Source: Prolixibacteraceae bacterium (lineage in GTDB: Bacteria > Bacteroidota > Bacteroidia > Bacteroidales > Prolixibacteraceae). From it: 34,547 nt of DNA. Shown here piece by piece: positions 24,230 through 28,251 of this stretch. Made by a program: the position numbers and the translations under genes. The number at the start of each line of letters is the position of its first letter. Position 1 is the stretch's first letter. Under the pieces are notes generated by a model. The model was not told the origin of the DNA. It saw nothing but the letters and a program-made list of their open reading frames with translations, and did not search any database. The DNA is taken from contig JAFGVJ010000348.1 in assembly GCA_016938055.1 (NCBI GenBank), positions 1 through 34,547 on the forward strand. Reading direction: 5' to 3'.

Positions 24230-24892
24230 ATGGATGTAAAAATTGAAGAAAGCTGGAAAACAGTCCTTCAGCAGGAGTTTGAGCAGCCCTATTTTACCGA
24301 GCTGACCAGTTTTGTCAGGGATGAATATCGGAATCACGCGGTTTTTCCTCCGGGGAATGCCATTTTCAATGCTTTCAACCTTTGTCCCTTTCATCAGGTG
24401 AAGGTGGTCATCATCGGGCAGGATCCCTACCATGGACCCGGACAAGCCCATGGTTTGTGTTTTTCTGTTCAGCCAGGGGTCGATTTTCCACCATCGCTCC
24501 GGAATATTTTCAAAGAAATCCATGCTGATTTGGGCATTCCCATTCCGCCCAACGGTGATCTGACCCGCTGGGCAAAGCAGGGTGTTTTACTGCTCAATGC
24601 TACCCTCACCGTAAGGGCGCATCAGGCCGGTTCGCATCAGAAAAAGGGTTGGGAGACTTTTACCGACGCAGTCATCAAACTGGTGTCAGCGCAAAGGGAA
24701 CATGTGGTTTTTTTGTTGTGGGGAGCCTATGCCCAACAAAAAAAACTGCTCATCGATGCCTCCAAACACCTGTTGCTCGAATCGGTACACCCTTCGCCTT
24801 TATCAGCCTCGCGGGGTTTTTTTGGCAATCACCATTTCAGCCAATGCAACCAATACCTTGCCGCACATGGTGAAAATCCGATTCATTGGTGA
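24230..24892 (+). CDS. ung: Uracil-DNA glycosylase, family 1
   Basis: [94 protein letters not shown]. Confidence 0.98.
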
Positions 24893-24996: not shown

Positions 24997-26385
24997 ATGA
25001 AACGACTTACCATCTTTCTGTTTATTATCCTTCCTTTCTTGCAAGCTTTTTCTCAAGGTAAAAAAGTCGTTAAACCCTTCGACGAGATTTACCGTCCGCA
25101 ATACCATTTTATGCCTGAACAAAACAAGTTGGGCAACCCGGTTTCAGTTTGGACCAAAGACTCTGTCTATCAGCTATTCTTTCAATACAACCCGCACAAC
25201 CTGTTGCCGGGATACATCAACTGGGGCCACGCCAGCAGTACCGATTTGCTGCACTGGAATTTCCAGCCGCTCGCGCTGAAACAACACGAGCCCATGCGCG
25301 ATTCCATGTACCAGGTTCCCTGGTGGGGAGCGGTTCATACGAACAACAACAAGGTGATGGCCTGGGTAAACCGTTGGGACGACGGTATTTATCAAACTAC
25401 CAGTACCGATGGCCTACACTGGACTCAAGAAGTGAAAACCACCGGAACCGAAGAACTCGAAAAGAGCGAATCTCATGTGTTCTGGTACGAGCCAAGCCAA
25501 AAATGGGTCATGGTAGTTTTTGATAGGGCTACCACCACCATGCTGATTTATAATTCAGACGACGGACTTGCCTGGGAAAAAACCTCTTCCTTCAATTACA
25601 CCTTAGGCTATCCCCAATTGTTTGAATTGCCGGTCGACCGTAAGCCCGATGATACCCGCTGGGTACTGGCCACCGAGAAAGGAACTTACCTGCTGGGCCG
25701 TTTCGACGGGAGGGAGTTGAAACTCGAAACTTCGGTAAAGCAATTTAACCATGGGCGTAAAACTGGTGCTACCATCTTTTTTCCCGATTTAAAACAGGAA
25801 CGAATGCTGGGAATCAGCCTACTGGAAGGTGAACAACTTGCCGATTTGCCCGCCAGAGGACAATTTTCGGTTCCCTTTGAATTGAGTTTACATACTTCAG
25901 AATCGGGGATCGAACTGGTTCAGCAGCCTTTAGAAGAACTGGAAACTCTGCATCATAAATCGTTTATCTGGGAGAATAAGAAAATTTACCCGGGCGTCAA
26001 AAACAACCTGTTGAAAGGTATCCGGGGTAGCGAGTTACGCATCAAAGCTACCATTGATCTGCTCAGCAGCGATCAGTTTGGCTTCCTGATCCGGTCGAAC
26101 CGTGCACGCGAAGGGACTGAAATTTCCTACAACGTGAAAAAAGGCTTCATTAATTTCCTGGGTACTCAACTCGACTATGTCCCCAGAAATAAAAAAATTG
26201 AATTTGAAATCCTCATCGACCGCTCGTCCATTGAACTGTTGATCGATGGTGGCAGGCATGTGATCAGTTATCCCTTCACCCCATCGCCAGAGGCTCCATT
26301 TTATGAGTTGTTTACCACAGGGGGCGAAATCATTGTTGACAAGATGGAAGTGATCACCCTGAAATCGGTATGGCGAGAAGACTAA
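24997..26385 (+). CDS. Secreted GH32-family-fold protein lacking canonical catalytic motifs (putative pseudoenzyme)
   Basis: Signal peptide MKRLTIFLFIILPFLQAFSQ; YRPQYHFMPEQNKLGNPVSVWTKDSVYQLFFQYNP...INWGHASSTDLLHWNFQPLAL...HVFWYEPSQKWVMVVF...YPQLFELPVD, plus a C-terminal beta-sandwich with IDRSSIELLIDGGRHVISYPFTP. The GH32 scaffold is clear but the active-site residues are replaced. Confidence 0.85.
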   Translation: MKRLTIFLFIILPFLQAFSQGKKVVKPFDEIYRPQYHFMPEQNKLGNPVSVWTKDSVYQLFFQYNPHNLLPGYINWGHASSTDLLHWNFQPLALKQHEPMRDSMYQVPWWGAVHTNNNKVMAWVNRWDDGIYQTTSTDGLHWTQEVKTTGTEELEKSESHVFWYEPSQKWVMVVFDRATTTMLIYNSDDGLAWEKTSSFNYTLGYPQLFELPVDRKPDDTRWVLATEKGTYLLGRFDGRELKLETSVKQFNHGRKTGATIFFPDLKQERMLGISLLEGEQLADLPARGQFSVPFELSLHTSESGIELVQQPLEELETLHHKSFIWENKKIYPGVKNNLLKGIRGSELRIKATIDLLSSDQFGFLIRSNRAREGTEISYNVKKGFINFLGTQLDYVPRNKKIEFEILIDRSSIELLIDGGRHVISYPFTPSPEAPFYELFTTGGEIIVDKMEVITLKSVWRED

Positions 26386-27219: not shown

Positions 27220-28251
27220 ATGAAAGCAATTGTTAAGGCCAAACCCGAACGTGGTCTATGGATGGAAGAGGTTCCCATACCACAGGTAGGGGCCAACGAA
27301 GTACTCCTGAAAATCAGGAAATCGGCCATTTGTGGTACCGATTTGCACATTTATAAATGGGACGACTGGGCACAAAAGACCATCAAAACTCCTTTGATCA
27401 TCGGCCATGAATATGTGGGCGAAATAGTGGAGCTGGGTTCCGAAGTCAACCAGTACAAGGTAGGCGACCGGGTGACTGCCGAGGGGCACATTGCCTGTGG
27501 GCACTGCCGTAACTGCCGGCGCGGACGCATGCACATTTGCGACCATACCGTTGGGATTGGGGTGCAACGGAACGGTGGTTTTGCCGAATATGTCAACGTT
27601 CCGGTGAGCAATGTCATCAAGGTGGATGCCCGTATCCCCGATGAAATTGTATCCATCATGGACCCCTTGGGGAATGCCTGCCATACTGCACTATCGTTCC
27701 CTTTGTTGGGTGAAGATGTGATGATTTCCGGCATTGGAGGACCCATTGGTTCCATGGCTACGGCCATCTGCAAATTTTCGGGCGCCCGTAACGTGTTGGG
27801 TACCGACCTGAGTCCCTACCGCAGGGAGCTGGCCCGTAAAATGGGCGCCGACCAGGTGATAGACCCCCGGAGCGATTCTTTCGAAGATGCCATGAAGAAA
27901 ATGGGCATGGTGGCCGGTTTCGACATTGGCCTTGAATGTTCAGGATCGGCAGTTGCCTTCAACCAACTCATCAATTACATGTACAACGGCGGCAAAGTAT
28001 CCCTGCTGGGAATTTTGCCCCCCAACACCACAGTCGACTGGAACAAGGTCATTTTCAAAGGACTTACCCTTAAGGGGATTTATGGCCGCGAAATGTTCGA
28101 AACCTGGTACCAGATGGAAATGATGCTCACCCGAGGTCTCGACATTACACCCATCATCACCCACCGCCTGAAGGCCGATGATTTCCAACAGGCTTTCGAT
28201 ATTATGGAGGAAGGCAACTGCGGAAAGATCATCCTCGACTGGGAAAAATAA
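27220..28251 (+). CDS. tdh: L-threonine 3-dehydrogenase (zinc MDR family)
   Basis: MKAIVKAKPERGLWMEEVPIPQVGANEVLLKIRKSAICGTDLHIYKWDDWAQKTIKTPLIIGHEYVGEIV; GHIACGHCRNCRRGRMHIC (structural Zn); IYGREMFETWYQMEMML. Confidence 0.93.
   Translation: MKAIVKAKPERGLWMEEVPIPQVGANEVLLKIRKSAICGTDLHIYKWDDWAQKTIKTPLIIGHEYVGEIVELGSEVNQYKVGDRVTAEGHIACGHCRNCRRGRMHICDHTVGIGVQRNGGFAEYVNVPVSNVIKVDARIPDEIVSIMDPLGNACHTALSFPLLGEDVMISGIGGPIGSMATAICKFSGARNVLGTDLSPYRRELARKMGADQVIDPRSDSFEDAMKKMGMVAGFDIGLECSGSAVAFNQLINYMYNGGKVSLLGILPPNTTVDWNKVIFKGLTLKGIYGREMFETWYQMEMMLTRGLDITPIITHRLKADDFQQAFDIMEEGNCGKIILDWEK

Follow-up and report, generated by a model that had tools for sequence, protein, structure and literature searches.

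A GH32-fold protein of a Prolixibacteraceae bacterium with replaced nucleophile and acid/base and a refixed pocket

The locus and its GH32-fold product

The window, meaning the whole stretch of 34,547 nucleotides that was analysed (contig JAFGVJ010000348.1, positions 1 to 34,547), contains on its + strand an open reading frame of 462 codons (24997..26385), here called the pseudo-GH32 gene, whose product carries the Pfam domains GH32N (residues 37-311) and GH32C (residues 314-452). On the same strand lie a uracil-DNA glycosylase-like gene (24230..24892) and a threonine-dehydrogenase-like (tdh-like) gene (27220..28251), both named by sequence alone. The frame, and every motif quoted for it in the first-pass annotation, were located in the window at the positions given below. 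A Bacteroidota-type promoter pattern was matched once in the window, which is below chance expectation, and not at all upstream of the pseudo-GH32 gene. A search of the genome to which the window belongs turned up no 16S; neighbour domains at related loci and distant hits point to Bacteroidota.

The scaffold had been assigned to GH32 from the sequence alone, and the profile search, an AlphaFold2 model and structure matches all bear this out. The window protein scores 94.3 bits against PF00251 (GH32N; curated cut-off 22.1) and 51.1 bits against PF08244 (GH32C; cut-off 21.9). In the AlphaFold2 model computed from 30 sequences (pLDDT 89.1, pTM 0.86; an earlier model from 10 sequences had a pLDDT of 80.8), the predicted fold is that of a full-length GH32, a five-bladed beta-propeller plus a beta-sandwich. 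The top 50 PDB matches of the model are all GH32-fold proteins, and the best are inulinases with a TM of ~0.8. Both domains are matched in the exo-inulinase of Aspergillus awamori (1y4w), the endo-inulinase of A. ficuum (3sc7) and InuAMN8 (8i12), with query-normalised TM values of ~0.80-0.83 and 22-23% identity to the window protein. Residues 1-19 (24997..25053, + strand) form a hydrophobic, signal-peptide-like segment, modelled as a helix at residues 2-18, from which export of the protein is probable. The window protein is devoid of Cys.

A GH32 relative was found in 135 of the 141 genomes of the bacterial family that were searched, following a first search of 61 relatives. Ten genomes from three genera, that of the window included, form a clade with 39-55% identity to the window protein, whose 10 rows are monophyletic with an SH-aLRT of 100 in a tree built with the motif columns masked; an eleventh genome (G003) has a C-terminal fragment only and was excluded from this tree. 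The canonical orthologs of the family are ~33-37% identical to the window protein. Outside the family, no clade-level scores were obtained among 394 genomes of the order and 398 of the phylum, in which the best score was 229 bits. All ten clade members have an open frame, a hydrophobic N terminus and a GH32N domain above the cut-off, and nine have GH32C above the cut-off, the exception being a shortened member (L070).

Catalytic and sugar-binding positions

The correspondence of motifs was established by alignment with the PDB inulinases and with 45 canonical orthologs of the same bacterial family that have the D/D/E triad, and it agrees with the alignment to the WMNDPNG, RDP, EC and FSGS motifs proposed earlier. 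All positions that follow are on the + strand. The WMNDPNG site reads KLGNPVS (25126..25146): its Asn is replaced by Gly46, which is G in every clade member, and the nucleophile Asp by Asn47 (codon 25135-25137), a position occupied by N, A or S across the clade and never by the Asp of catalytic GH32s. The FSGS site reads WWGA (25321..25332), and here the fructose-contacting Ser has become Trp110 (W in 9/10 members). At the RDP site, SES (25465..25473), Arg is changed to Ser157 (S or C in the clade), the transition-state stabiliser Asp to Glu158 and Pro to Ser159. The EC site reads GY (25606..25611), with Gly204, invariant in the ten members, in place of the Glu acid/base that catalytic GH32s have, and Tyr205 (F or Y in the clade) in place of Cys. 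The Trp of the WQ motif is replaced by Leu275 (25819..25821), where seven of the ten members have E, and relative to the inulinases the Trp of the WG motif is likewise replaced, as are the nucleophile, the acid/base, the RDP Arg and the FSGS Ser. Two further residues are the same in all ten members: Q63 (25183..25185), a pocket residue that has been kept, and E227 (25675..25677), a new acid past the acid/base motif, the equivalent of which is G in 44 of the 45 canonical orthologs.

Recurrence of equivalent residues in ten genomes, which the suggested search for orthologues brought to light, rules out an assembly or frame error as well as chance. The first-pass annotation held that all catalytic residues had been lost. 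It turns out that this is so for the nucleophile (N47) and the acid/base (G204), but that the third acid is kept as E158; position 158 is E in nine members and D in one, so that the side chain is still acidic, although longer where it is Glu, and the adjacent Arg is gone. Most of the sugar-binding residues are likewise replaced.

The RDP Arg is reported to be completely conserved throughout clan GH-J (PMC3360783). In the inulinase KcINU1 the substitutions W79L, R181L/K, C239A and W334L made activity undetectable (PMC7545266), and in BT1760 the substitution E221A lowered activity about 4,000-fold (PMC6560043). Positions 71, 157, 204, 205 and 275 of the window protein match residues at which a single substitution thus abolished or nearly abolished activity (PMC7545266, PMC6560043). 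Because five such positions are changed and the nucleophile is gone as well, hydrolysis of fructosides by the retaining mechanism of GH32 is, as far as sequence can tell, very unlikely for the window protein. The E221A variant of BT1760 retains levantetraose binding (PMC6560043), and so catalytic loss alone leaves fructan binding possible.

Descent, selection and the pocket

The uracil-DNA glycosylase-like gene is immediately upstream of the GH32 gene in the window, in both g4 genomes, in g22 and in one other g1 genome, and a tdh-like gene is close to the GH32 gene in genomes with the pseudo-GH32 (g1) and in genomes with a canonical GH32 (g18 and g3). Since canonical GH32s occupy the tdh-adjacent position in g18 and g3, the loss occurred most likely in place, and the pseudo-GH32 gene is most likely a positional ortholog that descends from the GH32 of the family.

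No partner gene conserved throughout the clade was found in the clade loci, and a function could not be read from the neighbours, since the uracil-DNA glycosylase-like, class-V aminotransferase, AlkD-type and tdh-like genes hint at no glycan role. A sensor histidine kinase gene adjoins the pseudo-GH32 gene divergently in four g1 genomes (L065, L067, L069 and L070) and is nearby in L064; the copy scanned (L067) consists of HisKA and HATPase domains. Elsewhere in the family, GH32 is often accompanied by a protein of ~840 aa (L077:8125-10647, clustered with proteins from 37 other loci), which is absent at the pseudo-clade loci; the scanned copy of this L077-type protein has a Por_Secre_tail, the type IX secretion tail.

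Purifying selection acts on the pseudo-GH32 gene in both of the clade pairs whose dS could be used, their NG86 dN/dS being 0.185 and 0.127; these two pairs make up the estimate for the clade, the remaining pairs tried having saturated dS. Together with the open frames, the low values uphold the earlier view that the gene is no decaying pseudogene. Canonical pairs have dN/dS of 0.04-0.08, about 2-4 times lower. The pseudo-GH32 is also evolving faster than the canonical orthologs: within g1 the GH32 identity is 45% compared with 87% for the tdh-like protein, whereas the corresponding values in g18 are 78% and 90%. This acceleration also fits partly relaxed selection, as would be expected if the enzyme had become dispensable, its catalytic residues had eroded and the fold lingered on because loss is slow. 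Repeated loss in the family is in keeping with such erosion, as catalytic residues are replaced also in genera g2, g8, g15 and g17 and in parts of g5, g11 and g21, and parsimony requires 7 changes for the catalytic loss across the family. Yet dN/dS is well below 1 in both pairs, the frames have stayed open among members only 39-55% identical to the window protein (the in-frame stop flags of G001 and G006 fall outside the ORFs used), and the pocket has been refixed with new residues, as described next, so that we consider a lingering remnant distinctly improbable.

The KcINU1 work (PMC7545266) was used to select eleven canonical pocket positions. Within the clade their conservation exceeds the mean of the propeller (0.69 vs 0.44; p=0.0045 by permutation), even though most of them hold new residues. 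In the degenerate genus g2 (6 sequences) the same positions are not conserved above average (0.42 vs 0.55). In addition, two loops, which in the canonical family orthologs are 11 and 5 residues longer, have been shortened in the clade: loop 111-125 from 26 to 15 residues and loop 173-190 from 23 to 18, uniformly in the nine full-length members. The catalytically dead scaffold has therefore probably been retained by selection with another job.

What this job would be can be approached from the pocket, the geometry of which we infer from sequence. In our preferred reading, which we hold to be reasonably likely, the product is a secreted, non-hydrolytic GH32-fold binding protein with a remodelled pocket and a ligand other than terminal fructose. 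A GH32 gene of the family, most likely staying in place, has lost its nucleophile and acid/base; thereafter the two loops became shorter in the clade and new residues (G46, W109, W110, E158, G204, E227, G257 and S274) were fixed in or near the pocket; and the old pocket may now hold a ligand other than terminal fructose without hydrolysing it.

The same constraint on the pocket would also be expected of a re-invented active site, in which Glu158 and Glu227, with W109 and W110, would support a chemistry distinct from fructoside hydrolysis in an aromatic-rich pocket of an otherwise standard GH32 fold. The acid at position 158 and E227 are both found in 10/10 members, the latter in place of the Gly of canonical orthologs, but the nucleophile and acid/base positions are non-acidic (N/A/S and G), and no solved closer relative with other chemistry was found among the PDB structure matches; we judge new catalysis of this kind quite unlikely. 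W110, for its part, could fill the pocket and not line it, and the protein may then have a structural role or act by surface contact. A structural or partner-binding protein acting through the surface of the sandwich or propeller, its old pocket merely filled, would account for the bulky Trp at the Ser position and for the conserved C-terminal domain, and the divergent histidine kinase gene adjoining the pseudo-GH32 gene in four g1 genomes is consistent with it. However, this kinase gene is missing from the window, g4 and g22 loci, and the positions of the pocket have been refixed, which makes a purely surface role unlikely compared with the binding protein that we prefer.

Comparison with other GH32 proteins

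Plants have defective invertases, such as tobacco Nin88, that share the GH32 fold, have lost sucrose hydrolysis and serve another role, Nin88 being an indirect activator of active invertases (PMC3713406). The comparison drawn in the first-pass annotation with non-catalytic plant homologues thus holds as regards lost sucrose hydrolysis. These proteins keep the catalytic triad, however, and lack the Asp/Lys couple and some Trp (PMC3713406), whereas the window protein is without nucleophile and acid/base, and hence they are not its equivalents. In animal GH32s the D, D and E are kept in 93-99% of sequences (PMC11311677). A bacterial GH32 pseudoenzyme, preserved by selection after both nucleophile and acid/base had been lost, was not found in searches of open-access full text.

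No canonical GH32, such as the active invertases on which Nin88 acts indirectly, was found elsewhere in the clade genomes, in which other PF00251 hits score <35 bits; these genomes are mostly drafts, 56-99% complete, and so a canonical GH32 could be missed in some. As far as these mostly incomplete genomes show, it is therefore unlikely that the pseudo-GH32 regulates an active GH32 of its own cell. The one weaker hit that was examined, the second PF00251 hit in the genome of the window (L003:1060-2856), reads as a LamG-plus-GH43-like protein and lies beside a GH29-like ORF, both named by sequence.

Pseudoenzymes are known from other glycoside hydrolase families. Here, the 45 canonical orthologs (for example L016) belong to the same gene lineage as the clade, those of g18 and g3 lying near the tdh-like gene, and keep the D/D/E triad and the fructose-binding residues; the other degenerate GH32s of the family derive from the same ancestral gene and have pockets that are variable or otherwise replaced, and a shared new pocket was not seen among them in the small samples tested. 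A single gene lineage thus includes canonical pockets, partly degenerate ones and refixed ones, and its sequences allow one to trace how a dead enzyme passes to a new function.

Some of the losses may be shared. The changes N46->G and E204->G are common to the clade, g2 (one member of which keeps E204) and g15, and are possibly one old event; a single clade of the pseudo-GH32s and g15 is not rejected (AU p 0.613), and a reduced tree groups the pseudo-GH32s, g15 and g2 with a support of 90. One pair within g2 has a dN/dS of 0.038. In genus g12, for which the profile search gave no match at E <= 1e-30, there is a very divergent GH32-like ORF (L161:987-2405; end branch 4.68 in the tree with masked motif columns) with no recognisable catalytic motifs. 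In genus g8 (L130 and L132-L136) the acid/base Glu is kept and the nucleophile Asp is replaced by Glu in five sequences and by Gln in one, so that here the GH32 lineage has degenerated in another way and only in part.
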